A stretch of DNA of 45,209 nt. Source: Phycisphaerae bacterium. GTDB lineage: Bacteria > Planctomycetota > Phycisphaerae > Sedimentisphaerales > SM23-30. Within the stretch, counting starts at the first letter, position 1; each line of letters starts with the position of its first letter. The stretch spans positions 1 to 45,209 of the forward strand of contig JAEIOG010000037.1 in assembly GCA_016342495.1 (NCBI GenBank), given 5' to 3'. Positions 6,291 through 27,405 of this stretch are shown here, piece after piece. The position numbers and the translations under genes were made by a program. The notes under the pieces are model-generated. The model was not told the DNA's origin. It did no database searches and worked only from the letters and a program-made list of their open reading frames with translations.

Positions 6291-6347
6291 ATATCTATTG
6301 TTAACTCACCAAAACCTTCACCTGTCAGAATTTAGGGTATTTTTTTT
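6291..6347 (-). promoter_or_regulatory. Conserved phage promoter element, copy A (towards xis-int)
   Basis: Read on the minus strand this is A8, six variable bases, AAATTCTGACA, seven variable bases (GGTGAAG), then a 25-bp block starting GTTTTGGTGAG and ending AATAGATAT. The same 11-bp and 25-bp blocks are identical at 9749-9805 and 27349-27405. It ends 43 nt before the excisionase start. The A-tract resembles an UP element and TTCTGACA a -35-like box. I interpret it as a promoter, or promoter plus operator, used by the phage regulatory machinery. Confidence 0.7.
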
Positions 6348-6426
6348 AATAAATATTAAAAAAGTATGCATAAGTATTTATTTAATAACAGCTTAGAATT
6401 TTTTGTAAAAAAATAGGAATTCTGCA

Positions 6427-6455
6427 TTGACAATACCCTATCAATTACCTAACAT
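6427..6455 (+). promoter_or_regulatory. Sigma70-type rightward promoter
   Basis: A perfect -35 TTGACA (6427-6432), a 17-nt spacer and TAACAT (6450-6455) make this the best host-type promoter in the region. It would transcribe the 53-aa membrane peptide and the two unknown genes up to the terminator at 8906. It is divergent from the conserved leftward element at 6291-6347, so the 6.25-6.6 kb gap is a divergent control region. The untranslated leader from about 6462 to 6600 contains no gene I can support. Confidence 0.7.
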
Positions 6456-6600
6456 AGTCACTGTATTAACCTGTGATACAAACGAAGGACTGGTCCGGAA
6501 ACCGCAGGTATTCAAAAGGCTTAAATCATTTACCCACAACGTTTTATGAGTAGAAGATCTGCGCCTATTTTCAGTGTATTCTTATCTATAAGGCTATGTT

Positions 6601-6762
6601 ATGCATTTAACTATGACCATAATTAAACACAAAGACTTTTTCGCCTGGCTATTAATTGTCATGATGATCGCAGCGTCGATTCGTTATGGTACAGCCGGTG
6701 ACCTACGCAAATGTATTTATTGGGCCTGCGGGGCCGGGCTTAATATTGCAATTACAATATAA
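6601..6762 (+). CDS. Small membrane protein with YW motif
   Basis: This 53-aa peptide (49 aa if the internal ATG at 6613 is used) has a hydrophobic helix FFAWLLIVMMIAASI followed by GDLRKCIYWACGAGLNIAIT. The ATG at 6601 has a weak AAGG seven bases upstream. The second half resembles the end of the 46-aa peptide encoded at 14311-14451: both show (D/W)-R, three residues, Y-W, a small-residue helix, L, and a VT/IT ending. I do not know its function. It is first in the transcript from the promoter at 6427 and probably sits in the inner membrane. Confidence 0.5.
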   Translation: MHLTMTIIKHKDFFAWLLIVMMIAASIRYGTAGDLRKCIYWACGAGLNIAITI

Positions 6763-6811
6763 CCACCATATGTTTATTTAAAAATTCAATCACAACAAGG
6801 AGTAGCTATCA

Positions 6812-7984
6812 GTGAAGCAATACAATCCACAATTAGTAATGAGACAGGTCAGCAAAAAACTATTGAAAACATTTTTTCAAGAGAACTGGAACTGTTGTTT
6901 TAATATTGACTGGGATAATTTAGTTAAAACCCAAATACAGGATATTTATGATGCATTTTTGAAGTTACCTGAAGAGCGACGGCGTTTACTGGAAGTTGAC
7001 CTGCAAGATATTCATAGCATAGCTGCAAGTGACAGCGGCATATCAATATTGGTGGAACAGGCATCTTTAATTTGCATTGATATTAATCAGGAGTTAGAGA
7101 AATATGAGAGCCGCTATGATATGGCTATGGCTGTTTTCCTTAAACATCCTGATATTTGGAAAGAAGCGGTACCTATTGTTCATGTTGAACACCTCAGTAA
7201 ACGATTCTGGTATCGTCGCAGTAATTTACCAATGACCAATAGCAGTCCATCTCAGATGGCTATTGATGCATTTAAAACAGATATTTCAGCATTTTATCTG
7301 CAAGCTCAGGGTCGCGGGCAAAGTTGCCAGGTAGATATAATTAATCGAAATGAACATCAGGACTATTACTTTGTATATCTTAGTGACCATACTGATACTG
7401 ATATAACCTGGGATAATCAAGGTCAATTAAAAAGAATTAATCGACGTCATGCCTTTGAAATTGTATTTATATATGATGTATTTCAGGGGACATTAGATAT
7501 ATATGCTCAGGGCGGCAAAAAAATCATTCAGCCTTTACAGCAGATTTTTGCCAAAGAGATTTTGGGTATTGATATTGACCCTCAAGATAATAGCACACCT
7601 TATGATGTTGCTAATCTAAAGCAGAGATCATTTACCTTTGCAACTGACCCGGAAGATGGGATTAGCCAGGTATCGGTTCGGATGCTGAAGATGTCACCTT
7701 TAGGTAATAGGAAAAAGAAGATCATAGTGAAATTGCCAGCTGATGGCCATCCAGAGGAAATCTATGCATTTCTTGATAATGACTTAAATGGTGAAAAATT
7801 GCCATTATCGGTATTACAGGTAGAACGAGCAACTATATCAATAAAACTTAATGGCTATGGCAGACGAAAGGCATTAACCTTTGATATTGGCCCAAAATCA
7901 AGCAACCTTAAGAGTCAACCGGAAAACATTCGTCAAATTGGCGAGAAATATTTAAGGAGATGGGGAATTGACCGATCCGCTTAA
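6812..7984 (+). CDS. Conserved-looking protein of unknown function
   Basis: A 390-aa soluble protein I do not recognise. A charged N-terminal half, with an ILVEQASLICIDINQELEKY helix around residues 85-105, is followed by a segment with many aromatic residues (about 130-260). The C-terminus ends in EKYLRRWGI. There are no membrane helices, no signal peptide and no nucleotide-binding loop. The GTG start is supported by AAGGAG eight bases upstream. It overlaps the next gene by 17 nt, which suggests translational coupling. Position just right of the integration genes, under a host-type promoter, fits an early or lysogeny function, but that is inference. Confidence 0.6.
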   Translation: MKQYNPQLVMRQVSKKLLKTFFQENWNCCFNIDWDNLVKTQIQDIYDAFLKLPEERRRLLEVDLQDIHSIAASDSGISILVEQASLICIDINQELEKYESRYDMAMAVFLKHPDIWKEAVPIVHVEHLSKRFWYRRSNLPMTNSSPSQMAIDAFKTDISAFYLQAQGRGQSCQVDIINRNEHQDYYFVYLSDHTDTDITWDNQGQLKRINRRHAFEIVFIYDVFQGTLDIYAQGGKKIIQPLQQIFAKEILGIDIDPQDNSTPYDVANLKQRSFTFATDPEDGISQVSVRMLKMSPLGNRKKKIIVKLPADGHPEEIYAFLDNDLNGEKLPLSVLQVERATISIKLNGYGRRKALTFDIGPKSSNLKSQPENIRQIGEKYLRRWGIDRSA

Positions 7985-8882
7985 TGTTTTCTGGCTTTGT
8001 GCATATAATGATAATTCTATCCTGACATATGATGACTTTATAGCAATATCAAAGCCGGTAAGGGATATATTGTTAAATACAGGACTATTTAGACAGGGGC
8101 CAAGCTCAAGCTCAGTTGAATGTGACAGCTGTGATGCTGGCCATATTGAAGAAGTTATCCAGAAGGATTATCCTGATGGTAAGCGGCGTTTTTTTATTCC
8201 ATGCCCGCATTGTATTAGTGTTCAAATTGCTCCTGAAAGACTGCAACAGTGGATTCCAGATTATCAAAAAGCAGCCGAGCTGTTATATCAGTCTTTGGAT
8301 TGTAAAGGAAGTTCCCAGACAATCCTGCCGAATCTACTTTGGAATATAGGAAGGGCAGCATTAGCTGGTCAATCTCGTCCGGTTTGGCTGGCTAGAGTTA
8401 TTAATGCTGAAGTAAGGCATTATTTACCTTCTGGCAAGCAGCCGCTACTGTTTGTCATTTTTCCGCAGCAATATAGAGTGGATAATTTTGACCCTGACCG
8501 TATATTTCAGATGAGTGAGCTTACAAGTCTCTCCGATGGGCAACTTCGATTTGATGTAGACGCTGTTGAAAGCCAGCTGGGGTATTTGATCGCAACTGGC
8601 CAGTCTGCCTGTAAAGCCCCTCGAAAAGATGCCAAAAGGGCATCGGTGATAAAAGCTGCCAAGCATGAATTGCATAATCATATTCTTTCAATGAAGAGCC
8701 TGCTGGCTAACTCTGATGATATTTTGCCCCGCTTTAGTCAGCGGGACCTTGCCCGGCGTCTGGGTGAATCAGAACCTATGATTTCCAGGATTCTTAAAGA
8801 ACCAGATGAGCTGCTTGGCATTCTCTGGAAAACAGTTAATGATGAATATATGATTCGCCAATATCGTCGTAAATCCGGCTGA
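7968..8882 (+). CDS. Zinc-ribbon and helix-turn-helix protein, putative regulator
   Basis: A 304-aa protein with a four-cysteine zinc ribbon near the N-terminus (CDSCDAGH about residue 46, and CPHC about residue 75). A C-terminal helix-turn-helix reads FSQRDLARRLGESEPMISRI (about 263-282). The architecture suggests a DNA-binding regulator coupled to the preceding gene, with which it overlaps by 17 nt. The TTG start is accepted because AAGGAG lies nine bases upstream and no better start exists. No CI-like repressor is otherwise visible between the integrase and replication genes, so this pair is a candidate for lysogeny control. Confidence 0.55.
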   Translation: MTDPLNVFWLCAYNDNSILTYDDFIAISKPVRDILLNTGLFRQGPSSSSVECDSCDAGHIEEVIQKDYPDGKRRFFIPCPHCISVQIAPERLQQWIPDYQKAAELLYQSLDCKGSSQTILPNLLWNIGRAALAGQSRPVWLARVINAEVRHYLPSGKQPLLFVIFPQQYRVDNFDPDRIFQMSELTSLSDGQLRFDVDAVESQLGYLIATGQSACKAPRKDAKRASVIKAAKHELHNHILSMKSLLANSDDILPRFSQRDLARRLGESEPMISRILKEPDELLGILWKTVNDEYMIRQYRRKSG

Positions 8883-8905
8883 TAATATAATACCCTATAC
8901 TGCAG

Positions 8906-8942
8906 ACGCAATTACCAATAAAACGGTATTTGCGTTTTTTTT
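8906..8942 (+). terminator. Rho-independent terminator
   Basis: ACGCAATTACC (8906-8916) pairs with GGTATTTGCGT (8925-8935), with one mismatch and an 8-nt loop, and is followed at once by a run of eight Ts. It lies 24 nt after the stop of the HTH gene and closes the transcript that begins near 6462. Confidence 0.88.
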
Positions 8943-8975
8943 ATGCCCACATTTTCAGGTCAAAATTATATGAAA

Positions 8976-9088
8976 ATTTCACTTGCCGCTGTTTGCTGAA
9001 ATCTAAATTAAAAATATTTATTTTATAAATCACTATTAGTAAAGCACTTATAGCTACGAAATAATTTCACATCGCTATTTGCTGAAAT
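8976..9088. promoter_or_regulatory. Twin operator-like palindromes upstream of the sigma gene
   Basis: Two related sites, 8976-9002 and 9064-9088, both start ATTTCAC and end TTTGCTGAAAT, so each is an inverted repeat of ATTTCA with a similar GC-richer centre. Their starts are 88 bp apart. They lie between the terminator at 8942 and the sigma-factor gene at 9156, the natural place for a repressor to control entry into the lytic programme. No unambiguous -35/-10 pair was seen between them. Confidence 0.5.
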
Positions 9089-9155
9089 TTTCCATCAGGC
9101 TGAAAGCCCAGGTAAATTGCCAGGGCAAAACAATGCCTTCTATGGAGATATCCTA

Positions 9156-9746
9156 ATGGATAAAAACAGCACTCTTGATTCTTATATCAAAACTACTATT
9201 GAAATTACTGCCAGAAAACTTATCGGAAAATGCGGGATTACCCGGGATGATCTGGAAGATATCCAATCAGAAATGATGCTCGATGTAATTCGACGTATAC
9301 CCAAACATGATAATCTGCGCTGGTCAATTAAGACCTTTATTCCGCATATTGTCAATCGTAAGGCTTTTCAGATTCTAAGGCATCAGCGTTGCAGTAAAAC
9401 CAGGATTCAACAATTATCACAATCCATGGACGCCCCACGGGGAAGTGAGTATTGTAAATTCAACATCAGTTTTCATGACATTATTACAGAGGATGCAGTA
9501 AAAAGTTCACGAGGAAATTCAACCAGGTCTGATATTGACCATGTGGATTTACGTCATGATATCCAGATTGCAATAAGACAGTTATCCCCTTTTCATCAAC
9601 AGTGCTGCTATGAAATTATGAACAGTCAGAGTATCGCTGAGGTCAGCCAAAAATTCTCCATGGTAAGAGGAACATTTTATGCACGGGTAATCAAGCCAAT
9701 TCGAGAGGTTTTCACCGAAGCTGATTTGAAAGAATATCTCATATAA
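9156..9746 (+). CDS. Phage-encoded sigma-70-like (ECF-type) sigma factor
   Basis: A 196-aa protein with two sigma-like regions. Region 2: GITRDDLEDIQSEMMLDVIR (about 28-47), followed by FIPHIVNRKAFQILRHQRC (about 62-80), the usual N-R-x8-R-R pattern. Region 4: DIQIAIRQLSPFHQQCCYEI, then SIAEVSQKFSMVRGTFYARV as helix-turn-helix (about 155-180). It has the ECF length with no region 1 or 3. The ATG at 9156 has GGAG eight bases upstream and is preferred to a TTG at 9117. It would redirect RNA polymerase. The conserved 57-bp element starts 3 nt after its stop codon and recurs twice more in the element, which makes those sites its likely targets. Confidence 0.78.
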   Translation: MDKNSTLDSYIKTTIEITARKLIGKCGITRDDLEDIQSEMMLDVIRRIPKHDNLRWSIKTFIPHIVNRKAFQILRHQRCSKTRIQQLSQSMDAPRGSEYCKFNISFHDIITEDAVKSSRGNSTRSDIDHVDLRHDIQIAIRQLSPFHQQCCYEIMNSQSIAEVSQKFSMVRGTFYARVIKPIREVFTEADLKEYLI

Positions 9747-9748
9747 TA

Positions 9749-9805
9749 AAAAAAAATGGTAAAAATTCTGACAGGTAAGGGTTTTGGTGAGTTAACAATA
9801 GATAT
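9749..9805 (+). promoter_or_regulatory. Conserved phage promoter element, copy B (towards recombination operon)
   Basis: This copy has the same 11-bp (AAATTCTGACA) and 25-bp (GTTTTGGTGAG...AATAGATAT) blocks as copies A and C, an identical A8 tract, and GGTAAGG in the variable 7-nt position. It begins 3 nt after the sigma gene stop. It ends 31 nt before an ATG at 9837 or 58 nt before the GTG at 9864 of the exonuclease gene. It would drive the recombination-replication genes. Confidence 0.72.
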
Positions 9806-9863
9806 AACCTGGAAAATTAAAAAAAAGTAAGTTTGAATGCTATTTCATGAAAGGAATACTAAA

Positions 9864-10709
9864 GTGCCTACTGAATATGAAAAAAATAATATTAATGAAT
9901 CATCCCGGATTCACATCGACATGGATGTATTAACAATCGAAATGGCAGATGATTATCATGCCAAGGCTACCGAATATATGAGCAGTCATCAGTTGATGGA
10001 TTTTATTAAGTGCCCATTGCTGTACTATAAAAAACGGGTAGGTTTAATTGAAGATAAGGATTCGCCATCATATTTTATGGGCCGAGCGGCTCATACCAGG
10101 ATTCTGGAAGGTCGAGACATTTATCAGCGTGACTATGCTGTAGGCGGGCCGATTAATCCTTCTACCGGTAAGGCTTATGGCCCATTAACCAAGAAGTTTG
10201 CTGATTGGCAGGCAGCTCAGGGTCGACCGGTGATTTCATCAGAACAGGCCCAAACAATTGAAAAGATGGCTTGCGGTATTGCTATGAATAGTGATGCTGT
10301 TGAATTGATCAGCTATGGCACCGCTGAAGGTGTAGTTAGAACTCCATATTGTGGATTAAATTGTCAGATTCGTATTGACTGGCTGCATCCTCATCAGGGA
10401 ATTGTTGATCTTAAAACCTGTGATGATCTTAACTGGTTTGAAGCTGATGCCAGACGATATCGATATCATAATCAATTGGCATTTTACCAGGCGGTATTAG
10501 CTACAGCTATTGGCCAGTATGTACCGGTGCATATTATCGCTATTGAAAAGAAAGAGCCATTTCGCTGTGGGCTCTGGAGACTAAGTGACCAGATGCTTAG
10601 TAATGCCAGAATAGAAAATGAAATGGCTATGGAATCAATCATATCCTGTTATGCAAATGATTATTGGCCCAGCGGCTATGAGGAAGTTCGAATCCTTGAC
10701 ATTTGCTGA
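9864..10709 (+). CDS. RecE-like exonuclease, PD-(D/E)XK superfamily (DUF3799-like)
   Basis: A 281-aa putative 5'-3' exonuclease that would produce single-stranded ends for recombination. Family marks in order: an HQLMDFIKCPLLYYKK motif near residue 45, GRAAHTRILE (about 74-83), the catalytic core IRIDWLHPHQ then IVDLKTCDD (about 170-191), and a YHNQLAFYQ motif (about 205-213) ending the nuclease fold. The GTG at 9864 with AAAGGA eight bases before it is preferred; an ATG at 9837 gives 290 aa. It is followed by a Sak4-like ATPase and a DUF669 protein, the usual phage recombination set. Confidence 0.8.
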   Translation: MPTEYEKNNINESSRIHIDMDVLTIEMADDYHAKATEYMSSHQLMDFIKCPLLYYKKRVGLIEDKDSPSYFMGRAAHTRILEGRDIYQRDYAVGGPINPSTGKAYGPLTKKFADWQAAQGRPVISSEQAQTIEKMACGIAMNSDAVELISYGTAEGVVRTPYCGLNCQIRIDWLHPHQGIVDLKTCDDLNWFEADARRYRYHNQLAFYQAVLATAIGQYVPVHIIAIEKKEPFRCGLWRLSDQMLSNARIENEMAMESIISCYANDYWPSGYEEVRILDIC

Positions 10710-10715
10710 TGTTTT

Positions 10716-10750
10716 AGTCTTCAGTTGTCAGTCTTTGGTCTTTAGAGATT
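10716..10750. repeat. Degenerate 7-bp repeat tract
   Basis: AGTCTTC, AGTTGTC, AGTCTTT, GGTCTTT and AGAGATT follow each other in exact 7-bp register just after the exonuclease stop. The periodicity and position after a stop codon resemble the TAGGCNN arrays in the structural operon, although the unit is different. Confidence 0.45.
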
Positions 10751-10807
10751 GAAACTGAAGGCTTATCTTAACTTATGAAATTTTAACCCAAGTATAAAGG
10801 AATAACT

Positions 10808-11509
10808 ATGTCTATTTTTGAAAAAGTATTAAATGAAAACAATATGCGAGCTCCCAAGGGGATAGTATACGGACCTCCTGGAGTCGGTAAAACTACATAT
10901 AGTTCAGGTTGTAATAATCCCATCATCGTGGATTGTGAAAATGGTGCAGCCCATGTCAGTTGTCAGCGGACACCATATCTGGCTAACTGGGACGAGATCC
11001 TGCCCTGGCTGGATGCCTTAGCTAATAGCGACCATGAATATGAAACGGTAGTTATCGATTCAATTGACTGGTTATTACGCCGCTTAGAAGAACGAGTCGC
11101 CGGTGTCAATGGTGATGCCCGCAATATGGATAATACCATGAACCGCAGCCATGGTGGCTATGGCAATGGCAAACAGGTATTACGTAACTATGTTTATCAG
11201 TATCTGCTGCCGACTTTAGATGCTATCGCTAATCGTGGAATAGCTGTGGTATTACTGGCCCATGCTTCACGCCGTACAATTACTACTATCGATGGTATTG
11301 TCATGGAAAAATCAGCACCTGAGATTCATCCGGATCTGATGAATACCATGATCGAATGGTCAGATTTTGTGGGAGCTGCCCGAATGAATAAAAATGAGCG
11401 TGAGCTTATCTTAAATGAAACCGGTCAGTTATTGGCAAAGAATCGTTATGGAATCAATGAAGTGCTGCCCTTGAACTGGGATGCGATGGTAGCGGCAATC
11501 TGTAAGTAA
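10808..11509 (+). CDS. Sak4-like RecA-fold ATPase (AAA_24)
   Basis: A 233-aa ATPase of the phage recombination type. Walker A is GPPGVGKTT (residues 22-30) and Walker B is VVIDSID (81-87). A later VVLLAHASRR is typical of the RecA-like core sensor strand. Sak4 proteins act as short RecA-like annealing proteins with a phage SSB and exonuclease, and that is exactly the neighbourhood here. The ATG follows AAAGGAATAACT. It could be a generic AAA_24 protein of unknown role, but the flanking exonuclease and DUF669 gene favour a recombination function. Confidence 0.8.
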   Translation: MSIFEKVLNENNMRAPKGIVYGPPGVGKTTYSSGCNNPIIVDCENGAAHVSCQRTPYLANWDEILPWLDALANSDHEYETVVIDSIDWLLRRLEERVAGVNGDARNMDNTMNRSHGGYGNGKQVLRNYVYQYLLPTLDAIANRGIAVVLLAHASRRTITTIDGIVMEKSAPEIHPDLMNTMIEWSDFVGAARMNKNERELILNETGQLLAKNRYGINEVLPLNWDAMVAAICK

Positions 11510-11645
11510 ATACCCAACACCCAAAGGGTGAACTTCTCTGGCAGAGCCAGTGTTAAAGGCACATATATTTAACCAAGAGCTTAACAGTAAAACTTAGTAT
11601 TACGAATAAACACGTTTAATAAACAATTTTTAGGAGAATTTTAAA

Positions 11646-12107
11646 ATGGCAAATCTAAATGGATTTAATGCAAACAATGTTGAACCGGATGCAGGCTTTG
11701 AACCAATACCAGCTGGAAAATATCCGGTGGTAATTACCAAAACTGAAATGAAGCCTACCAAAAACGGCGATGGCAGTTATCTGGAAATTGAACTTGCTGT
11801 TACCGAAGGTGAATTTCAAGGTCGCCTGGTATGGGACAGGCTTTGTCTTGATCATCCTAATCGTCAGACTGTCGAAATTGCCTGCAGTAAACTATCTGCG
11901 ATCTGTCGGGCCGTTGGTGTTATGGAGCCACAGGATTCTGTTGACCTGCATAATATACCGCTGGTGATTACTGTTAAGCTCAAAGAAAGAGAAGATAATG
12001 GCGATCTTACCAATGAAGTCAAAGGTTATGGTGAAAAAAGTTCACTTAAACCTCAAACACAGCCAGCTGGCAATACTGACAAAACTTCCCCGTGGAAGCG
12101 TTCTTAA
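11646..12107 (+). CDS. DUF669-family protein, putative phage single-stranded DNA-binding protein
   Basis: A 153-aa protein with the DUF669 pattern: NANNVEPDAGFEPIPAGKY near the start, then ITKTEMKPTKNGDGSYLEIE and WDRLCLDHPN, a beta-rich OB-like fold. The C-terminus is a flexible polar tail (KPQTQPAGNTDKTSPW). DUF669 genes regularly neighbour Sak4 ATPases and are thought to supply the SSB function. The ATG is preceded by TTAGGAGAATTTTAAA. It shares the operon with the exonuclease and ATPase. Confidence 0.8.
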   Translation: MANLNGFNANNVEPDAGFEPIPAGKYPVVITKTEMKPTKNGDGSYLEIELAVTEGEFQGRLVWDRLCLDHPNRQTVEIACSKLSAICRAVGVMEPQDSVDLHNIPLVITVKLKEREDNGDLTNEVKGYGEKSSLKPQTQPAGNTDKTSPWKRS

Positions 12108-12119
12108 AGAAAGGGTCAG

Positions 12120-12419
12120 ATGATAAATTGTAAAGCCAAAGGTTCTCGTCTGGAATTAAAGAGCATGAAGTTACTGCAGGCATCTGGCTATCAGTGTATC
12201 AAGTCTGCCGCTTCATTAGGTGTATTTGATATTATTGCAACGAATCGATTAGGTATTCGCTGCCTGCAGGTCAAAGCTAATAACTGGCCCGGGCCATCAG
12301 AGCGTGAGAATATGAAAGAGGCGGCAAGGTCATTACCTGTAAATGCCACCATTGAATGCTGGCGTTGGGATGATAATGCCCGCCAGCCATTAATTAAACA
12401 TATTGATGAATTTAAATAG
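12120..12419 (+). CDS. Holliday-junction-resolvase-like nuclease
   Basis: A 99-aa PD-(D/E)XK endonuclease of the Hjc/VRR-like type. The fold signature is visible: KGSRLELKSMKLLQASGYQC with the first acidic residue, SLGVFDIIATN with the catalytic Asp, and CLQVKAN with the catalytic Lys (Gln where Glu is common). The start ATG follows AAAGAAAGGGTCAG and lies 12 nt after the DUF669 gene. It probably resolves branched recombination or replication intermediates. Confidence 0.75.
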   Translation: MINCKAKGSRLELKSMKLLQASGYQCIKSAASLGVFDIIATNRLGIRCLQVKANNWPGPSERENMKEAARSLPVNATIECWRWDDNARQPLIKHIDEFK

Positions 12420-12442
12420 GATTTTAATAATCCTCAACACTG

Positions 12443-12485
12443 AGCTTTTAGTCTCCAGATTAATATGGCCTGGAGACTAAAAGCT
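12443..12485. repeat. Perfect 16-bp inverted repeat (hairpin)
   Basis: AGCTTTTAGTCTCCAG (12443-12458) and CTGGAGACTAAAAGCT (12470-12485) are perfect inverted copies around an 11-nt loop. They lie between the resolvase and the next gene. No T-run follows on either strand, so it is not a standard terminator. It may be an mRNA-processing or stabilising hairpin, or an inverted pair of 7-bp repeat units. Confidence 0.75.
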
Positions 12486-12503
12486 AATAAAACAGGAGTT
12501 TTT

Positions 12504-12743
12504 ATGGAATTTTTATTTGGAATGGTAGCCGGAGTGATAACAGTTTTTGTTATTAATGATATTAAAAATGATATTTCACCTCGGGTCAAAAACCCAGCCG
12601 GCCATGTTGATAATCTGGCTAAAAAAGCTGATAAGCATCTGGATAATCTTAAACAGACTAAAACCCAGATCACAGATATCAGTAATAAGGCCCGGCAAGC
12701 TGATGATGATGTAACCAGTAAGATCAAAGATCTAGCAAATTAA
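12504..12743 (+). CDS. Small membrane-anchored coiled-coil protein
   Basis: A 79-aa protein with an N-terminal membrane helix (MEFLFGMVAGVITVFVIN). A strongly charged helical region with repeated D/K/L heptads (HVDNLAKKADKHLDNLKQTK, about 34-53) probably forms a coiled coil. The start at 12504 is chosen because AGGAG lies five bases upstream; an upstream ATG at 12465 falls inside the inverted repeat. The function is not recognised. Its place between a resolvase and ParB-like genes suggests a replication-associated membrane factor, but this is speculative. Confidence 0.6.
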   Translation: MEFLFGMVAGVITVFVINDIKNDISPRVKNPAGHVDNLAKKADKHLDNLKQTKTQITDISNKARQADDDVTSKIKDLAN

Positions 12744-12761
12744 TATACAAACAGGAACAAT

Positions 12762-19315: not shown

Positions 19316-19387
19316 TACGAAAACGTAACGCCACACTATGTGCGGTGACGTATTCGTAAAAACAACGGGTCCTCCCTACGAAAACGT
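19316..19387. promoter_or_regulatory. Repeated TACGAAAACGT motifs upstream of the methyltransferase
   Basis: TACGAAAACGT occurs at 19316-19326 and 19377-19387, and an inverted near-copy ACGTATTCGTA lies at 19348-19358. The first and the inverted copy form an imperfect hairpin (16 of 20 positions) around CTATG. The block lies in the gap between the broken Cys-rich gene and the methyltransferase and is probably regulatory. The rest of 19263-19476 holds no gene I can support. Confidence 0.4.
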
Positions 19388-19476
19388 CCGTTTTAGGCCA
19401 TGGGAAACGGGCACGTTATTGCATACAGTTTGTTTAGCGTGTCCGGTTTTTTAAATAACTAATTTTGGAGAAATAT

Positions 19477-20694: not shown

Positions 20695-21061
20695 AGAATT
20701 CAGCAATAGCTTGCTTGTCTTTTTCGCCTTTGGCAACGGCTAATGTGAATTGGACTAAGGTATTATTGTCGATTTTGAATTCGATGTCATTCAATTTGAG
20801 AAAAATGATAGCAGCAGCGGCACCTACTCGTTTGTTACCATCAACGAAAGGATGATTTTGTACCAGATGAAACATGTATGCAGCAGCCATCTGAAAAATA
20901 TCGCTATGAACATATTTACCATCAAATGAAGTTTGAGGTATGGCAATAGCTGACAGTAACAGATTGGTATCACGAATAGTTATGCCGCCGCCATGGGCTT
21001 GGGTAAGCCGCTGATGAATTTGCAAAATATCTTCGATTTCTAAAAAATGAATATGGGGCAT
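20669..21061 (-). CDS. doc: Doc-family Fic-fold toxin
   Basis: A 130-aa Fic/Doc protein. Doc toxins phosphorylate elongation factor Tu and stop translation. The active-site motif is HPFVDGNKR (residues 70-78), the Doc form of HPFx(D/E)GNKR. IEDILQIHQRLTQAHGGG near the start and MAAAYMFHLVQNHPF before the motif fit the family. It begins right after the AbrB-like antitoxin gene, with which it forms an operon, and converges with the methyltransferase. Confidence 0.88.
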   Translation of the reverse strand: MPHIHFLEIEDILQIHQRLTQAHGGGITIRDTNLLLSAIAIPQTSFDGKYVHSDIFQMAAAYMFHLVQNHPFVDGNKRVGAAAAIIFLKLNDIEFKIDNNTLVQFTLAVAKGEKDKQAIAEFFKRHCSGI

Positions 21062-21289
21062 TTATTTTGCCAGTTCTTCAAAAGCTTTATCATAAGTTGC
21101 CAGGGTATCTTCCATTGCATCCTGGAATTTCTGTTGGCGAGCAGTTTCAACTGGACGAACCAGAAGAGATTTGCCATCTTCAGTAGAGAGCAGTAAAGGG
21201 CTGTCTGGTTTGATGTTTAATAGCTCCATAATAGCTTTATCTATGACAAGAGCATAGCTGTTACCGTGTTTTGTTAATGTTTTAATCAT
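21062..21289 (-). CDS. AbrB/MazE-type antitoxin
   Basis: A 75-aa SpoVT/AbrB-fold antitoxin: KTLTKHGNSYALVIDKAIME (about 3-22) is the swapped-hairpin DNA-binding strand region, followed by LLNIKPDSPLLLSTEDGKSL. The acidic, helical C-terminus would neutralise the Doc toxin encoded directly downstream. ATG 21289 follows a GAAAGG. A promoter lies just upstream, and autoregulation is expected from the family. Confidence 0.85.
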   Translation of the reverse strand: MIKTLTKHGNSYALVIDKAIMELLNIKPDSPLLLSTEDGKSLLVRPVETARQQKFQDAMEDTLATYDKAFEELAK

Positions 21290-21321
21290 AATATTGCCTT
21301 TCAGTGTAACATCGTCAATAC

Positions 21322-21350
21322 ATTATACATACTTTATTAGTACAATGCAA
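21322..21350 (-). promoter_or_regulatory. Promoter of the Doc antitoxin-toxin operon
   Basis: On the minus strand TTGCAT (21345-21350) and a consensus TATAAT (21322-21327) are separated by 17 nt, 32 nt before the antitoxin start codon. Confidence 0.7.
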
Positions 21351-21375
21351 TATTATTTACAATTATGTATCCTAT

Positions 21376-21954
21376 TTAGTATAAGTCTTTGTATCTCAAA
21401 GGTTTATGTTTTTTTGATAGAATGAATTGGCCTCGGTCAGCTTTCTCAAAGCATGAGCTATCACCTTTGGTTTTGATTTCTTTATTGATTGCGGAATGAA
21501 GGGTATTAGCTGGAGTTTTACCGGATTTGGGCTGCCAGAGATTTAACTCTATGGCTTTGGCGATAATGTCCCTGCATGATAGTGGGCTATTGCAATTGTT
21601 AAGTATCTTGGCAGCAGCGTTTATAAGTGACAGAGGTTTAGCCTGGGCCTTGTTTGGTTCAGGTTGGCCGCTGTCTGGGTCTTTGGTTTCGGTTACGGTG
21701 TTGGCCTTGACAGTCTCTATAGCTTGTTGCTGGCGTTGAGCTTTTTTCTCGTTGATTTCATCTTCGAGTTCATTGAGGCTGTTAACTGGTTTGATTAATC
21801 TTTGGGCAGATTTGATATGGATTTTTTTGTGGGTGCTTAGGTTAATTGCATGCCAGCCTTCTTGATGATGTTTGGCGGTAATTTGAATTGTGACTAATGC
21901 ATTAGTGACTTTACATTTGTAATGATAGCCGATTTTGATTTCTGATTCTTGCAT
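21376..21954 (-). CDS. HARE-HTH domain protein
   Basis: A 192-aa protein whose C-terminal domain (about 105-182) is a HARE-HTH (HB1/ASXL-type winged helix): SLINAAAKILNNCNSPLSCR, DIIAKAIELNLWQPKSGKTP, and NTLHSAINKEIKTKG ending in GQFIL. The N-terminal part is a small beta domain with IGYHYKCKVTNALVTIQI and a charged Gln/Lys-rich linker. HARE-HTH domains occur with restriction and DNA-modification factors and probably bind DNA. ATG 21954 has AAAGGA upstream and is preferred to a start at 22005. It is the last gene of a four-gene leftward operon. Confidence 0.75.
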   Translation of the reverse strand: MQESEIKIGYHYKCKVTNALVTIQITAKHHQEGWHAINLSTHKKIHIKSAQRLIKPVNSLNELEDEINEKKAQRQQQAIETVKANTVTETKDPDSGQPEPNKAQAKPLSLINAAAKILNNCNSPLSCRDIIAKAIELNLWQPKSGKTPANTLHSAINKEIKTKGDSSCFEKADRGQFILSKKHKPLRYKDLY

Positions 21955-22059
21955 GGTATTGTCCTTTCTGCAGTTGTTCAAAAAATGTGGTTTGATGAAA
22001 GCCAAAGGTTTAGTTTGTACTGAAATTATTAAAAGATTTGGCTCTCGGTCCTTACCGAG

Positions 22060-22326
22060 TTAGTCCATAAAGTTTTCGAGAATGCGATAGTAGTCATGAA
22101 TTTCTGAGTTGGTGCCTTCGTAGCCATCAAGGTAGTATTGCAGACAGCCAGCCATCGAGAATACATCTTCTTGACAGTCTGGCAATACATGGTGTGTCAA
22201 TACATTGTCGCCATCTATCATTACAACCTTGATATATTCATCGCCGTGTTTGCGGGTGATGGTTGCGGTTTTTGTTGGGTCGCCGCCTTTGTTTTCTTTT
22301 ATTAGATTGATTTCGGAAATATTCAT
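22060..22326 (-). CDS. Hypothetical 88-aa protein
   Basis: A small soluble acidic protein starting MNISEINLIKENKGGDPTKT, with an AGCLQYYLDGYEG segment near the centre. There is no recognised family and no membrane segment. The ATG has AAAGGA nine bases upstream. It belongs to the leftward operon of short phage genes between the HARE-HTH gene and the AbiE module. Confidence 0.55.
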   Translation of the reverse strand: MNISEINLIKENKGGDPTKTATITRKHGDEYIKVVMIDGDNVLTHHVLPDCQEDVFSMAGCLQYYLDGYEGTNSEIHDYYRILENFMD

Positions 22327-22344
22327 GCTGGTTTCCTTTCGGTA

Positions 22345-22533
22345 TTATTTATCGCTGTTTCTGCCTGCTTCATAAGCAGCTTCCAGGGCGGCCTTGATGC
22401 ACCATATTGCTTGTTCCTGAAAATCTTCGCCGCATTTACGGGTTTCAAGAGTTTCAAGGTTCAGCCATTCTTGAGCGATAGCCAGAAGGGTTTTGGCTTT
22501 TTTGTCTGGTTTTTTTGTTGTTTTGTTAGTCAT
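22345..22533 (-). CDS. Hypothetical 62-aa protein
   Basis: A short, basic then helical protein (MTNKTTKKPDKKAKTLLAIA, later EQAIWCIKAALEAAYEAGRN). The ATG at 22533 is preceded by AGGAATTAAAACC and is preferred to an upstream start that would overlap the previous gene. No family recognised. It lies 4 nt after the preceding gene in the same operon. Confidence 0.5.
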   Translation of the reverse strand: MTNKTTKKPDKKAKTLLAIAQEWLNLETLETRKCGEDFQEQAIWCIKAALEAAYEAGRNSDK

Positions 22534-22537
22534 GGTT

Positions 22538-22780
22538 TTAATTCCTGGTTTCCTGGAGGGTTGTATTGATTTCATCGCGTATCGCATCTGGTTCGGTTCC
22601 CATAAGGGCCGCTAAGGTTTCAAGCATTTTTTCTTTGATCTGGTTTAAGTCGCCTATATGGCCCCAGTTCAGTCTGGCATCTTTGCCGTGGACTTCCAGC
22701 TCGCAGCTGATAAAGCCCTTCAGGTTGGCAATGTCTGCTTTCAGGTTTTGGTGCTGGTTGTTCAAATCTTGCTTAGTCAT
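22538..22780 (-). CDS. Hypothetical 80-aa helical protein
   Basis: The first gene of the leftward small-gene operon. The product MTKQDLNNQHQNLKADIANL continues with a Trp-containing turn and an IKEKMLETLAALMGTEPDAI helix, so it is probably all-alpha with a coiled coil. ATG 22780 follows AAAGGACTTAAAC. No family is recognised. Confidence 0.55.
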   Translation of the reverse strand: MTKQDLNNQHQNLKADIANLKGFISCELEVHGKDARLNWGHIGDLNQIKEKMLETLAALMGTEPDAIRDEINTTLQETRN

Positions 22781-22826
22781 GTTTAAGTCCTTTATTATCA
22801 AGGGTTTATGCTTTAATTACACTTGT

Positions 22827-22854
22827 ATATTACCATATAAATTAACAATAGCAA
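22827..22854 (-). promoter_or_regulatory. Promoter of the HARE-HTH operon
   Basis: On the minus strand TTGCTA (22849-22854) and TAATAT (22827-22832) are separated by 16 nt, 46 nt before the first start codon. The sequence around it is very AT-rich. The remainder of 22855-23017 shows nothing I can support. Confidence 0.55.
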
Positions 22855-23017
22855 GTTACATAAGTCATTATATTGCAGTAATTTACATTAATTTATGATA
22901 TGTGGAAAAAAGATGAGAAGATATGTGGATAGCCATAAAAAAGTTGATATATAAACATGGATTCCAATTAGAAAGGCGCGTAAAGATGCTGTAAATGCAA
23001 GGCTTTAGTTTGAATGG

Positions 23018-23866
23018 CTATTGAAGTTTGCTCAGTTGGCTAAGAAAAAGTTCCTGGCTCCAAAGATCAAGCGACCTTAATTCATTTAAGCGAATAAAAC
23101 GGCGGACATCTTGGACTGTGGCTTTGAAATCCAGTGACATGATTCTCTGTTTAAGCTGCTGGGTTAGCCAGCTAAGGCCTGCCTGAATTGACTGATTTTT
23201 CCATGGGCCCAGCTGATTAAGTGCTGATGACAGAAAGTCATAATTGACCTGGGGGTATCGACTGGTATACCAGAGAAAATCATACCAGTCTCTGCCCTTG
23301 ATGTATTCTCTACATAAAAGAGCATGAATTTTACCGGCAAAAAGCGTTGGTTTATCCTGAGTGGTAACCGAGGAGATAAATGGAAAATCAAGGATAGATA
23401 ACTCAGTTTTTCCGCCAGCAGGAGGATTAGTGTCAACTTCAAGTTTGATCTGTATTTTACGCAGAGGTCCGGTTTTCCCGCTGTAGTTGAGCTGAATGAC
23501 TTTGCCAAGTGAATCATCTTTTAAGAAAGCTTTTTTAACAATAGAATCGACTTTAGAGCGATCATTGATTTTTATCTGATAGCCATAGTTGTTAAGTTCC
23601 TCGGTTAATGCATCCAGGTGAGTTTTGAGTTCAAAACTATTATCAGGGGTATGCAGGATAAAATCCATATCCTCAGAGAATCGATTAAGGCCATAAAAGA
23701 TTCGCAGGCAGGTTCCACCTTGAAAAGCGGCATGTTTGAAGAAGTCAGTGCGACCCAGTGCAGCTAATGTTACTTCCTGAGTGATTTCACGAATAGCTTG
23801 CTGTTCTTCGATTTCAGATTTACAGTTATAAGAATTTAGTCTGTCTTGAATCAGCTTGATACTCAT
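23018..23866 (-). CDS. abiEii: AbiEii-type nucleotidyltransferase toxin
   Basis: A 282-aa toxin of the AbiEii/AbiGii nucleotidyltransferase family. The catalytic core shows FQGGTCLRIFYGLNRFSEDM (about 48-67), with Asp66 and Asp68 as metal ligands. The family's KIHALLCREYIKGRDWYDFL segment (about 178-197) supplies the late K..R-D-x-x-D motif. Family members inhibit growth, MenA-like enzymes by modifying tRNA acceptor ends; together with AbiEi they act in abortive infection. It overlaps the antitoxin gene by 4 nt in the usual order. Confidence 0.88.
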   Translation of the reverse strand: MSIKLIQDRLNSYNCKSEIEEQQAIREITQEVTLAALGRTDFFKHAAFQGGTCLRIFYGLNRFSEDMDFILHTPDNSFELKTHLDALTEELNNYGYQIKINDRSKVDSIVKKAFLKDDSLGKVIQLNYSGKTGPLRKIQIKLEVDTNPPAGGKTELSILDFPFISSVTTQDKPTLFAGKIHALLCREYIKGRDWYDFLWYTSRYPQVNYDFLSSALNQLGPWKNQSIQAGLSWLTQQLKQRIMSLDFKATVQDVRRFIRLNELRSLDLWSQELFLSQLSKLQ

Positions 23867-24501
23867 AGTTTTAATTCCTTTTGCAGGCTTTTAAGAAAAT
23901 CCAGAACTCGCTGACTGCGATAATTATTGGAGATTTCATCGAAATCTTCGCTACTGAGTTTTTCGAATTCGTCCGGTTCGACACGCAGGCTCTTAATTGC
24001 AGGTTTGGTCCCAAGCCAATCCAGCTTGTGAATATAAATATAATCAGCTAAGGCTTTAAGAGCTGTTGCCATTAAGAAGATATTGCCATTGGAATCTTTA
24101 ATGCGATCGACTCCGGCATATAGAATTTTCTGAGGGACTCGTTTATAGCTGAACAATCCCAATGGGGTATTAAATTCCTTGGAATTTTTTAAACTTGCAT
24201 TGGTGCAGGCATAAACTGCTTCAGGGATCCAGCCATGATAATTTAAAGCTGATTCCAGGCTGATATAGCTGGGGCCATAGACATGCTGGGCGATTGCAAA
24301 GGTGTTAACTGGCTTTTGTTGGAATTTGCGGTTCAGGCAATAAAGGCCACGACGAATTTTAATAATTTCATCATTGGCAAGAGCGCGTTTAACTAGACCC
24401 TGACGAGAATTGTCACTGCCAGGTAACAGCACAGCGGTGTCATTAGAAGAGAACAGCCCAAAAGGGGCTTTCTCATAAAAAATTTGAGTCAGTTTATTCA
24501 T
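23863..24501 (-). CDS. abiEi: AbiEi-type antitoxin / transcriptional repressor
   Basis: A 212-aa AbiEi protein. The N-terminal winged helix (about 1-60, including KRALANDEIIKIRRGLYCLN) binds DNA, and the AbiEi C-terminal domain shows YISLESALNYHGWIPEAV. It represses its own operon and neutralises AbiEii. Two inverted repeats sit upstream around the promoter, the arrangement known for AbiEi autoregulation. The module was probably acquired as a unit by the prophage, since it separates the small-gene operon from the terminase genes. Confidence 0.87.
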   Translation of the reverse strand: MNKLTQIFYEKAPFGLFSSNDTAVLLPGSDNSRQGLVKRALANDEIIKIRRGLYCLNRKFQQKPVNTFAIAQHVYGPSYISLESALNYHGWIPEAVYACTNASLKNSKEFNTPLGLFSYKRVPQKILYAGVDRIKDSNGNIFLMATALKALADYIYIHKLDWLGTKPAIKSLRVEPDEFEKLSSEDFDEISNNYRSQRVLDFLKSLQKELKL

Positions 24502-24530
24502 TATTAATCTCTAACGTTATTTTTAACAGA

Positions 24531-24551
24531 AACTGTCATTATGTGACAGTT
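24531..24551. promoter_or_regulatory. AbiE operator, proximal inverted repeat
   Basis: AACTGTCA and TGACAGTT flank TTATG, a perfect 8-bp inverted repeat 29 nt upstream of the abiEi start. It matches the core of the distal repeat. Confidence 0.75.
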
Positions 24552-24558
24552 AATATTA

Positions 24559-24587
24559 AATATATCATATTTTCGTCATAATGTCCA
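24559..24587 (-). promoter_or_regulatory. abiE promoter
   Basis: On the minus strand TGGACA (24582-24587) and TATATT (24559-24564) are separated by 17 nt. The promoter sits between the two AbiE inverted repeats, so repressor bound at both sites would bracket it. Confidence 0.6.
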
Positions 24588-24597
24588 GTAAACTTTA

Positions 24598-24626
24598 TAG
24601 AAACTGTCATTTTGTGACAGTTTCTA
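24598..24626. promoter_or_regulatory. AbiE operator, distal inverted repeat
   Basis: TAGAAACTGTCA and TGACAGTTTCTA form a perfect 12-bp inverted repeat around TTTTG. Its centre is 71 bp from the proximal repeat, close to a whole number of helical turns. Confidence 0.78.
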
Positions 24627-24665
24627 CGAAAAATATCCAAATAATTCAGTCTCAAGGAGAAACTA

Positions 24666-24866
24666 TTGTCAAAGTCACCCGTGAAAATCACCACCTTAAC
24701 AGCAGAGCAGATCGCTAAGTTAATATCTGGCTCGGTAAATACTAAAATTACCGCTGAGATTGTCAGAGAAATCGCCGAAATTGCAGACATTGTCAAGGCT
24801 GATGGCACTATCAGTTTGATTGATTTTACTGCATATCTGGCTAAGGAGGTGGTAAGTGGCAATTAA
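24666..24866 (+). CDS. Small protein upstream of the terminase
   Basis: A 66-aa helical protein, MSKSPVKITTLTAEQIAKLI then repeated acidic helices with TAEIVREIAEIADIVKADGT. It starts with TTG behind AAGGAG and overlaps the terminase start by 11 nt, so the two are coupled. By position it could be a small terminase-associated protein, but the sequence shows no HTH and I do not recognise it. Confidence 0.5.
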   Translation: MSKSPVKITTLTAEQIAKLISGSVNTKITAEIVREIAEIADIVKADGTISLIDFTAYLAKEVVSGN

Positions 24867-27117
24867 TCCCATTAAGTTAAAACCAACCGAGCTGACCAGG
24901 CTATTAAATTCAGCTGGTTTTGGTGAAGTCATCAGCGAAAGAACGCTCAGACGTCAACGCAATCGGGCAGGTTATACTATCGGTGACACCCGCACTATTA
25001 ATCTTTTCAAGTATGCCGGGTGGCTCACCAGCGAATACCTCAAACCCGCTAAAGAAACCGGCGGCTATGAAGCTCTCAAAGAAGCAGCTAGAAAGCGTAA
25101 TGCCGAATTAGCTAAATCCGGTCAGGAAATCGGAGATATTCCAGCTGTTATCGATCCTGAGCGGAAGGCTAAGGCTATTGCTGAATTTAAGTATTTCTGT
25201 GAGGTATATTTCGCTGAAGTATTTTATCTGGGCTGGTCTGCCGATCATCTCAAGGTAATTGATAAGATTCAAAAAGCTGTTTTATCCGGAGGTCTGTTTG
25301 CTTTGGCGATGCCTCGCGGATCAGGAAAAACTGTGTTAATGCAAATGGCATGTTTATGGGCGGCATTATCTGGTGCTACAGAATTCGTTTGTCTGATCGC
25401 AGCATCTGGGGACCGGGCCAAGGATCTGCTAGAAAATATCAAGGTCTGGCTGGAGACTAATGAGTTATTACATGAAGATTTTCCTGAAGTAACTTATCCG
25501 ATCAGGGCCTTAGAGAGAATCACTAATCGCCAGAAGGGCCAAAAGCACAATGGTATTGCAACCAGAATCGAATGGGCTGCAGATAAGCTGGTATTGCCAA
25601 CTATCGATGGCTCAAAATCTTCCGGTGTGGTAATTTCCTGCAGCGGCATGAAAGGTTCAGATATCCGCGGGCAAAACCATGCAAGACCTGATGGCAAAGT
25701 TGTCCGTCCCCAGCTGGTAATGGTAGATGATCCTCAGACCACCGAATCGGCATGGTCACCATCTCAGTCACAAAGAAGAGAAGCGATTTTAGCTGGCGAT
25801 GTATTGGGGATGGCAGGACCTGGCAAGAAAATCTCCGGTCTGATGGCCTGTACGGTTATTCGGCCAGAGGATATGGCTGATAATATTTTAGACCGGGACA
25901 AACATCCTGAATGGCAGGGCGAGAGAACCAAGATGGTTTATACTTTTCCAGCTAATGAGAAGCTCTGGGCCACATATGGGCAAATCCGAGGAGATTCATT
26001 TCGTAATGATGGCGATGGAAGTGAAGCTACTGAATTCTATCGCGAGAATCGTCAGGAGATGGATATCGGTTCGATTATTGCCTGGGACCAGAGATTCAAT
26101 GAAGATGAACTATCAGCTATTCAGCATGCGATGAACTTAAGGCTTAGAGATGAAGCTGCATTTTTCGCTGAATATCAAAATGAGCCTATTGTAGAATCCC
26201 AAGGTGAGGAGATGTTAACCGTTGAGCAGATCATCGCCAAGTATAATGGCTATGATAAATTAATCCTGCCAATTGGCTGCAGCTATATCACTATGTTCAT
26301 TGATGTCCAGCAGAAGGCATTATTCTGGATGATATGCGGCTGGGAAGATAATTTTAGCGGTTATATCATCGATTATGGCACCTGGCCAGACCAGAAGCGA
26401 AAGTTTTTTACCTTGCGTGATATCCGCAATACTTTAATGGCAGCAAAACCCAATGCAGGTCTGGAAGGTGCAATTTATAATGGCCTGGAAAAACTCTGCA
26501 CAGAAAAGCTGGGGCGCTGTTATCGAAGAGAAGATGGAATTGAAATGAAAATTGACCGCTGTTTAGTTGATGCCAACTGGGGTCAATCTACCGATGTGGT
26601 TTATCAGTATTGTCGCCAGAGCCAATATGCCGGAATCATTCTGCCATCTCATGGCAAATACGTCGGGGCATCCTCGATGCCATTTAGCGAATATAAACGC
26701 AAGAAGGGCGATAGGGTAGGCTTACACTGGCGAATCCCAAATACCGCCGGTAAACGAGCGGTCAGGCATGTTCTAATCGACACCAATTACTGGAAGAGTT
26801 TTGTCCATGGCAGATTAGCAGTTGCGATGGGTGACCCGGGCTGTTTATCACTTTATGGCAGAGATGAAAAACAGCATATTCTACTGGCAGAGCAACTGAC
26901 CGCAGAATATCGCATTAAGACCATCGCTCGTGAAAGACAGGTTGATGAGTGGAAGTTAAAAGCTAATCGACCTGATAATCACTGGTTTGACTGCCTGGTC
27001 GGAGCTTCGGTAGCTGCTTCCATTGCCGGAGCTAATTTAGCGGAACTGGCTATTAAATCTACAGCACCTGCCAGGCGAATAAAATTGTCAGATTTACAAA
27101 AAATGAAAAATATTTGA
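24856..27117 (+). CDS. terL: Large terminase subunit with N-terminal HTH-like extension
   Basis: A 753-aa DNA-packaging motor. Walker A is MPRGSGKTV (about 152-160), Walker B LVMVDDPQ (287-294), and the C-terminal nuclease begins with YITMFIDVQQKALFW, whose Asp is a metal ligand. The first 60 residues (LLNSAGFGEVISERTLRRQR, NRAGYTIGD) look like a helix-turn-helix that in other phages belongs to the small terminase, so DNA recognition may be built in. The GTG start has AAGGAGG upstream. Length is above the 500-650 aa typical for the family, consistent with an extension. Confidence 0.9.
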   Translation: MAINPIKLKPTELTRLLNSAGFGEVISERTLRRQRNRAGYTIGDTRTINLFKYAGWLTSEYLKPAKETGGYEALKEAARKRNAELAKSGQEIGDIPAVIDPERKAKAIAEFKYFCEVYFAEVFYLGWSADHLKVIDKIQKAVLSGGLFALAMPRGSGKTVLMQMACLWAALSGATEFVCLIAASGDRAKDLLENIKVWLETNELLHEDFPEVTYPIRALERITNRQKGQKHNGIATRIEWAADKLVLPTIDGSKSSGVVISCSGMKGSDIRGQNHARPDGKVVRPQLVMVDDPQTTESAWSPSQSQRREAILAGDVLGMAGPGKKISGLMACTVIRPEDMADNILDRDKHPEWQGERTKMVYTFPANEKLWATYGQIRGDSFRNDGDGSEATEFYRENRQEMDIGSIIAWDQRFNEDELSAIQHAMNLRLRDEAAFFAEYQNEPIVESQGEEMLTVEQIIAKYNGYDKLILPIGCSYITMFIDVQQKALFWMICGWEDNFSGYIIDYGTWPDQKRKFFTLRDIRNTLMAAKPNAGLEGAIYNGLEKLCTEKLGRCYRREDGIEMKIDRCLVDANWGQSTDVVYQYCRQSQYAGIILPSHGKYVGASSMPFSEYKRKKGDRVGLHWRIPNTAGKRAVRHVLIDTNYWKSFVHGRLAVAMGDPGCLSLYGRDEKQHILLAEQLTAEYRIKTIARERQVDEWKLKANRPDNHWFDCLVGASVAASIAGANLAELAIKSTAPARRIKLSDLQKMKNI

Positions 27118-27125
27118 GAATTTCG

Positions 27126-27146
27126 CAACAGCCCACCTGTTTTTTG
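27126..27146 (+). terminator. Possible weak terminator after the terminase gene
   Basis: AACAG (27127-27131) pairs with CTGTT (27137-27141) and is followed by further Ts. The stem is only five pairs, so it would be weak. The following stretch to 27348 is AT-rich and holds no gene I can support. Confidence 0.35.
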
Positions 27147-27348
27147 CAAATATAGAAGGTATGAAAAATGTTTTTTTAATGGGAGAAGATTAATAATTAT
27201 GTTGTTTTGAGAAAAAATGAGAAAATATTAATTTTCTTTCGCCAGATTTACCCCCCAAGCGCAGAAGTAATAGATAGAGAGTGTAATAAATAATCAGCTT
27301 TGAAAAACAAAAAAATATGGCTTTTTGAGTGTTTTTTCAAAAAAAGTA

Positions 27349-27405
27349 AAAAAAAATGGTAAAAATTCTGACACCTCACCGTTTTGGTGAGTTAACAATA
27401 GATAT
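27349..27405 (+). promoter_or_regulatory. Conserved phage promoter element, copy C (towards structural operon)
   Basis: This copy is identical to copy B except in the 7-nt variable segment, which here is CCTCACC and forms a CTCACC/GGTGAG hairpin with the following conserved block. It ends 43 nt before the ATG of the first structural-operon gene, the same distance as copy A to the excisionase start. It would drive morphogenesis genes from 27449 onward. Confidence 0.72.

Follow-up and report, generated by a model that had tools for sequence, protein, structure and literature searches.

Three copies of a short element on a contig of a Phycisphaerae bacterium (GenBank assembly GCA_016342495.1, contig JAEIOG010000037.1, positions 1 to 45,209; this whole stretch of 45,209 nucleotides is referred to here as the window) are very probably promoters of a sigma factor encoded by the phage that carries them, a protein resembling the extracytoplasmic function (ECF) sigma factors. 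One copy directly follows the sigma factor gene, and the three copies face the integration/excision genes, the recombination/replication genes and the structural genes, respectively, a different module for each copy as the original prediction had it. That prediction also proposed a dedicated sigma/promoter regulon, which was borne out in outline: a motif is shared at the 3' ends of related sigma genes, and copies of it lie before recombinase and structural genes. The three copies are located as follows.

6291-6347 (core 6291-6333), minus strand: copy A, promoter-like, facing the excisionase-like gene and the integrase gene
9749-9805 (core 9763-9805), plus strand: copy B, promoter-like, directly after the sigma stop codon, facing the exonuclease and Sak4 genes; relatives have an equivalent position
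27349-27405 (core 27363-27405), plus strand: copy C, promoter-like, ahead of a 65-amino-acid gene and the portal gene; the orthologous position holds the family motif in relatives

The three-copy element

All three copies were recovered at the predicted coordinates and share the predicted layout of A8, six bases, AAATTCTGACA, seven variable bases and GTTTTGGTGAGTTAACAATAGATAT. The common element had been described as 57 bp long. This holds for a 43-bp core but not for the A-rich 14 nt that lead into it, which differ in copy A (TACCCT, versus TGGTAA in the other two), which leaves 43 bp as the strict common part. The core, AAATTCTGACA-N7-GTTTTGGTGAGTTAACAATAGATAT, has 36 fixed positions, and its seven variable bases read GGTGAAG, GGTAAGG and CCTCACC. 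An independent repeat search recovered pairs of the copies as repeats D6 (62 nt, 90% identity), I2 (61 nt, 87% complementary) and I1. Copies A and C end 43 nt ahead of ATG 6247 and ATG 27449, and the A8 of copy B begins 3 nt past the sigma stop codon (9746), all as first described; copy B ends 31 nt upstream of ATG 9837.

No other sequence of this length had been noticed as shared between the modules. For the element itself, the runner-up position in the window agrees at just 22 of the 36 fixed positions. With up to three mismatches allowed, the 43-mer occurs at exactly three sites in the 5.42-Mb host genome, and the backwards control occurs at none. A chance origin of the three copies is excluded. 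The exact 43-mer was rejected as a sequence common to relatives, as it was not found in the 396 other genomes of the class Phycisphaerae and every phage carries its own version. A 29-nt half of the element had no exact match in IMG/VR.

An ECF-like sigma factor and its relatives

9117-9746, plus strand: phage sigma factor gene, 209 amino acids from TTG, regions 2 and 4 only

The gene probably starts at ATG 9156 (196 amino acids) instead of the listed TTG 9117. Its product matches phrog_1740 (RNA polymerase sigma factor) with an E-value of 2.4e-9 and has sub-threshold matches to Pfam Sigma70_r2 and to TIGR02937 (sigma70-ECF, 18.7 bits); the TIGR02937 cut-off is exceeded by a relative (L019, 60 bits) and by a homologue from phage WO (49.9 bits). 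A DxEDIxQE motif, the region 2 helices and region 4 are conserved in an alignment of the family (A1). When the family was checked for the hallmarks of the sigma-70 superfamily, both a region 2 (core-binding, with the -10 helix) and a region 4 helix-turn-helix were present. AlphaFold predicted confident helices in both domains, the region 4 helices spanning residues 139-201 with a predicted local distance difference test score (pLDDT) of about 90. In a Foldseek search against PDB nearly all matches were sigma factors, mostly ECF and housekeeping, including the sigma-4 domain 3hug; template modelling (TM) scores were low, probably because the two sigma domains are flexibly linked. Judged from sequence and predicted structure, the open reading frame at 9117 is a two-domain ECF-like sigma factor of the sigma-70 superfamily.

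Relatives of this protein, mostly 21% to 37% identical to it, were found in 61 of 397 Phycisphaerae genomes (the window's own included), and an order-level search added none closer than 37%. A scan of named genomes added relatives from Desulfobacterota, Alphaproteobacteria (including Bartonella queenslandensis, Pseudovibrio and Ruegeria), Magnetococcales, Verrucomicrobia, Calditrichota and others. A further 19 came from IMG/VR, where the window sigma alone gave no match as a query; alignments A3 and A4 were used as search queries, A1 and A2 being too diverse.

A bipartite motif at the 3' end of the sigma genes

When the 500 bp past each sigma stop codon were set against the remainder of that prophage, second copies turned up in several prophages (G001 over 31 of 31 bases, G233 in three places, and G066); controls scored at most 17 points. 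The layout common to the family, right after or overlapping the sigma stop codon, is TCTCCGACA, 17 bp and GTAAGTAAC. The family motif is CCGACA-N17-GTAWGTAAC, a -35/-10 pair with a 17-bp spacer.

A motif matrix was trained on Phycisphaerae prophages and then cut down to its -35 and -10 columns. It was applied to 97 sigma clusters defined at 70% protein identity, the Phycisphaerae clusters among which are also the training set. The search of related phages for a common motif that had been proposed with the regulon came out in its favour: one bipartite motif lies at or overlaps the sigma 3' end in 71 of the 97 clusters with a threshold of 10 bits (57 with one of 14 bits), and falls within the top 1% of own-locus control windows in 70. 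In the set of viral contigs and named genomes from other phyla, the motif lies at the sigma 3' end at 44 of 65 distinct loci at the 1% own-control level.

The spacing is kept strictly. Of the sites scoring at least 18 bits, 42 primary and 20 secondary ones have the 17-bp spacer, and every other spacer length from 13 to 21 bp has at most 3 primary and 3 secondary sites. CCGACA-N17-GTAAGTAAC occurs in at least 120 IMG/VR stretches, versus 12 with an N19 spacer. Among the 120 N17 matches listed, a sigma gene ends at the site in 25 and is present somewhere in the stretch (median 8.8 kb) in 31; for the 12 N19 matches both counts are zero.

Host genes make no notable use of the motif. This was the second point on which the regulon could be checked, and here too the result is favourable: the 43-mer has no further site in the window's own genome, and the strict motif occurs 10 times in 40 sigma-bearing host genomes, at least five of these at sigma 3' ends (0 occurrences with a 19-bp spacer and 2 of the motif backwards). 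Long dyads around the -10 were found at 7 of 72 sites (0.1 expected), and most sites have no dyad. At these seven sites (L202, L161, L171, L170, L162, G233:C134 and G233:C75) the -10 lies between the arms of a long inverted repeat, perfect or nearly so, with the left arm in the spacer and the right arm in the leader.

The predicted promoter register in the window

6323-6328, minus strand: copy A -35, CTGACA, in the register of CCGACA-N17-GTAWGTAAC
6297-6305, minus strand: copy A candidate -10, GTTAACAAT, 17 bp from the -35, family register, diverged from the family -10
9768-9773, plus strand: copy B -35, CTGACA, family register
9791-9799, plus strand: copy B candidate -10, GTTAACAAT, family register
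27368-27373, plus strand: copy C -35, CTGACA, family register
27391-27399, plus strand: copy C candidate -10, GTTAACAAT, family register

Placed in the family register, the window element reads CTGACA-N17-GTTAACAAT, with a -35 identical to that of the G205/L135/L205 group. Region 4 of the sigma factor would read CTGACA as the -35, and region 2 would read the GTTAAC-containing block 17 bp downstream as the -10. The window -10 appears to be a diverged version of the family -10, and would fit a sigma factor whose region 2.4 has likewise drifted.

No match to the sigma-70 consensus (TTGACA-16/18-TATAAT) overlaps any of the three copies. CTGACA is only one base off TTGACA and the spacing is 17 bp, as might be seen if a host sigma factor (sigma-70 or ECF) used the elements as promoters and the adjacent sigma gene were a coincidence. 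However, the family -10, GTAWGTAAC, is unlike TATAAT, and the motif is near-absent from host genomes and goes with the sigma gene across hosts from many phyla, so we regard host promoters as highly improbable.

Covariation between sigma residues and promoter bases

Over 76 clusters, the strongest covariation signals for the -10 were at residues 73, 77, 81 and 85 (window numbering), in four-residue steps within region 2. Signals for the -35 included residues 183, 185 and 188 of the region 4 recognition helix, among other columns. Where the first -10 base is A, residue 85 is methionine in 10 of 11 clusters, and in 0 of the 65 others. A C at -35 base 4 goes with Arg188 in 10 of 14. This covariation supports, but does not prove, that the sigma factor reads the motif.

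The same signals bear on whether the elements are instead operators of a phage repressor or activator, placed over ordinary host sigma-70 promoters and coordinating the three modules. The 25 uninterrupted bp common to the window copies are longer than a -10 has to be and include GTTTTGGTGA inside the spacer, and the dyads of a minority of relatives (7 of 72 sites versus 0.1 expected) are also what operators might look like. Against this, the motif consists of two asymmetric blocks whose distance stays at 17 bp across phyla while the spacer sequence is free. It goes with the 3' end of the sigma gene and has no overlapping sigma-70 consensus, most sites lack a dyad, and the base-residue covariation sits in sigma regions 2.4 and 4.2. 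We therefore consider operators unlikely, and promoters of the phage sigma factor the better explanation.

Several observations nevertheless weigh against promoters of this kind. The window -10 departs from the family (position weight matrix score -0.4), and a second register, GTGAGTTAACAATAG at 13 bp from the -35, resembles the family -10, as well as GTAAGTAACCAATAG of G260, but has the wrong spacing. We put this register second because the family keeps the 17-bp spacing strictly and it is with this spacing that the -35 matches. By the matrix, 26 of the 97 sigma clusters have no motif, and in several of these the sigma stop codon runs into the next gene or almost reaches it. In the covariation analysis, the phylogenetically independent pairs point the same way (about 1.9 of 2; 2.1 with and 0.3 against, of 3), though their number is too small for significance. 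Copy C comes only after the terminase genes (24856-27117), and the regulon therefore leaves part of the late genes unexplained.

Among the motif-less sigma genes, those of G143:C1 (three copies), G205:C31, G243 and G097 have a stop codon that overlaps or adjoins the next start. The gene that follows was read as an exonuclease, and the arrangement looks as if the two were translationally coupled.

Genes facing the elements and a proposed switch

5996-6247, minus strand: excisionase-like helix-turn-helix gene, first after copy A (Pfam HTH_17, E 6.4e-13; phrog_66, excisionase)
4730-5926, minus strand: tyrosine integrase, second after copy A (Pfam Phage_integrase, E 2e-27)
9837-10709, plus strand: PD-(D/E)XK exonuclease, first after copy B (DUF3799, E 1e-27; phrog_412, exonuclease VIII)
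10808-11509, plus strand: Sak4-like single-stranded DNA annealing ATPase (phrog_124, E 1.3e-32)
27449-27646, plus strand: 65-amino-acid gene, first after copy C, with recognisable orthologues in other phages, including G016
27703-29136, plus strand: lambda-type portal protein (Phage_portal_2, E 4.1e-53)
6427-6455, plus strand: candidate host sigma-70-like promoter, 10/12 match, divergent from copy A

Secondary sites in relatives face comparable genes. In L115, L146 and L159 they face serine recombinases (genes read from sequence), usually behind a small gene, phrog_11806. The G001 site faces a recombinase (phrog_95) and the G009 site an integrase-like gene, identified by eye, whose first 70 residues have no PHROG match. 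In G016, a site 14 kb downstream faces a 65-amino-acid protein plainly orthologous to the one behind copy C. A blind pattern scan of IMG/VR also found the motif ahead of the 65-amino-acid gene and portal in L330/L276, L221/L241/L282 and L300, and L200 has it there likewise. Five other orthologues of this gene (G075, G346, G244, G243 and L248) have no obvious motif copy at that position, which suggests that the wiring of the regulon varies. At a loose threshold of 14 bits there were 78 secondary hits versus 32 in reversed sequence, so isolated weak secondary sites are unreliable.

The positions in relatives also bear on whether the elements are non-promoter repeats, such as recombination sites, replication origins or a recent dispersed repeat. 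Phages do reuse repeats, and there are three near-identical copies in this one. Each window copy, however, is followed at 31-43 nt by the start codon of a gene that it points towards, and distant phages hold sequence-diverged forms of the motif at orthologous positions. The elements are therefore old and under selection and not recently copied, which leaves repeats of these kinds with very little probability.

If the elements are promoters of the phage sigma factor, a transcript made by a host sigma factor, under control of the lysogeny circuit, would lead to production of the phage protein. The site at 6427-6455 is a candidate start for early transcription running rightward into the sigma gene; sites of this type were not enriched above the shuffle expectation. 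The phage sigma factor would then fire copy A, leftward, for the excisionase and integrase, copy B, from right behind its own stop codon, for the exonuclease, Sak4 and replication genes, and copy C for the 65-amino-acid gene, portal, head and tail. As the sigma-plus-promoter pairing recurs in related phages of many phyla, a single phage protein may activate the genes for integration/excision, replication and the virion in concert.

A related system in phage WO of Wolbachia

The clearest relative of the window sigma among 50,697 phage records is a hypothetical protein of phage WO (QHJ75499, 164 amino acids, 27% identical). The element behind this homologue is WO's own, TTGCGGACGAATT-(5-6)-GTCATCGTACATATATA, and is present in three copies: after the sigma homologue, divergently before a DNA methylase/terminase/portal operon, and before a structural cluster. 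On record MN180251 the three motifs are located at 26803 (minus strand), 27873 (plus strand) and 21186 (minus strand). WOVitA4 has two of these copies. The gene after the WO sigma is Sak4 (phrog_124), as in the window.

Small sigma factors of Wolbachia are 158-181 amino acids long, and the targets of Wolbachia sigma factors, the extra small ones included, were stated as still to be determined (PMC7397232). The WO elements predict three exact start sites for a sigma factor with targets not yet named (PMC7397232). Cappable-Seq of Wolbachia gave sigma-70 motifs only and no sign of a lytic cycle (PMC12558409), and data from a state lacking lytic activity speak neither for nor against WO sigma promoters. 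We lean slightly towards one ancient ECF-like sigma family which, together with a conserved promoter at or across the sigma gene's 3' end, forms a lysogeny-to-lysis master switch of temperate phages in several bacterial phyla, WO included, with each sigma/promoter pair co-evolving, private and orthogonal.

Other features of the window

Between an AbiE-like gene pair (23018-24501, minus strand) and the terminase genes, positions 24518-24637 hold two near-identical 44-nt copies, each with a ACTGTCAT-TGTGACAGT-like dyad, which look like operators. Arrays of 7-bp units (of the TTAGGCGATAGGCATTAGG and complementary CCTAATGCC type, in both orientations) lie between structural genes and are reminiscent of heptanucleotide repeats in other bacteria.

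27632-27680, 29108-29170, 31141-31203, 32352-32443 and 35953-36015, both strands: 7-bp unit arrays, from the repeat search

At the left end, positions 115-760 are a CRISPR array of ten 32-nt repeats, GTCGCTCCCCCCGAGGGAGCGTGGATTGAAAC, at a spacing of about 66 bp, probably in host DNA, and 1012-2708 encode a LexA/UmuD-like and UmuC-like pair. A Fic-domain and helix-turn-helix pair lies at the right end (43585-44636; both pairs read from open reading frame translations). A 125-nt stretch is duplicated near the right end (43409-43533 and 44957-45081, 81% identity), possibly in connection with the phage end.

Comparison with known systems

Phage sigma factors with dedicated promoters are already established (SPO1, phiEco32, 7-11, SigN). 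Xpf of PBSX, gp28 and gp33/34 of SPO1, and gp55 of T4 are phage sigma or sigma-like proteins of middle or late operons; compared by description, their consensus differs from that of the present family. SaPh711_gp47 of 7-11 and gp36 of phiEco32 are sigma-70 superfamily proteins that direct host core polymerase to dedicated phage promoters, and the 7-11 promoters are bipartite (GTAAtg-16-aCTA), experimentally proven, and drive late as well as middle genes (PMC8948821). As in those phages, there are dedicated repeated promoter-like elements upstream of phage modules, here predicted from sequence. 7-11 and phiEco32 are lytic podoviruses with a different consensus, their sigma factors being compared by description only, whereas the phages described here largely bear integrases, have the integration module in the predicted regulon and have one predicted promoter abutting the sigma gene.

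SigN (ZpdN) of the plasmid-prophage pBS32 of B. subtilis has an element-restricted regulon that includes DNA replication functions; it is autoregulated and LexA-controlled, and structural genes are largely excluded (PMC6751061). The likeness lies in an element-encoded sigma factor with a regulon confined to the element. The window differs in that one copy faces structural genes and none lies upstream of the sigma gene: with only three copies in the window, a SigN-type own promoter ahead of 9117 on the plus strand was not found. Among the Wolbachia small sigma factors, QHJ75499 of WO is a relative that has a three-copy element of its own.

CASP-sigma of type III-E CRISPR is a locus-encoded ECF-like sigma factor with promoters within its own locus (PMC10028731). 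It is the best NCBIfam match of the window sigma (NF041236, E 6e-5), but the score of 23 bits is far below the cut-off of 100, which places the window sigma outside that family. CASP-sigma differs in belonging to a defence system and in being regulated by Csx30; the similarity suggests that the defence sigma and the phage sigma family may be related.

The sigma family, its consensus and its WO targets look new, and a search of the open-access literature, which left subscription journals outside, found no description of the family or consensus. Proteins annotated generically (sigma-70 family protein, or hypothetical protein in WO) become testable regulators with named target promoters in several phyla, the motif and the 3'-end rule offer a bioinformatic handle for annotating operons in uncultured temperate phages, and the family offers a natural series of orthogonal sigma/promoter pairs with hints of residue-base specificity. 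Compared with the known systems, this family appears distinctive in that it is spread widely across phyla, its phages have the gene content of temperate phages, the integration module belongs to the predicted regulon, and a predicted promoter is built into the sigma gene's 3' end.

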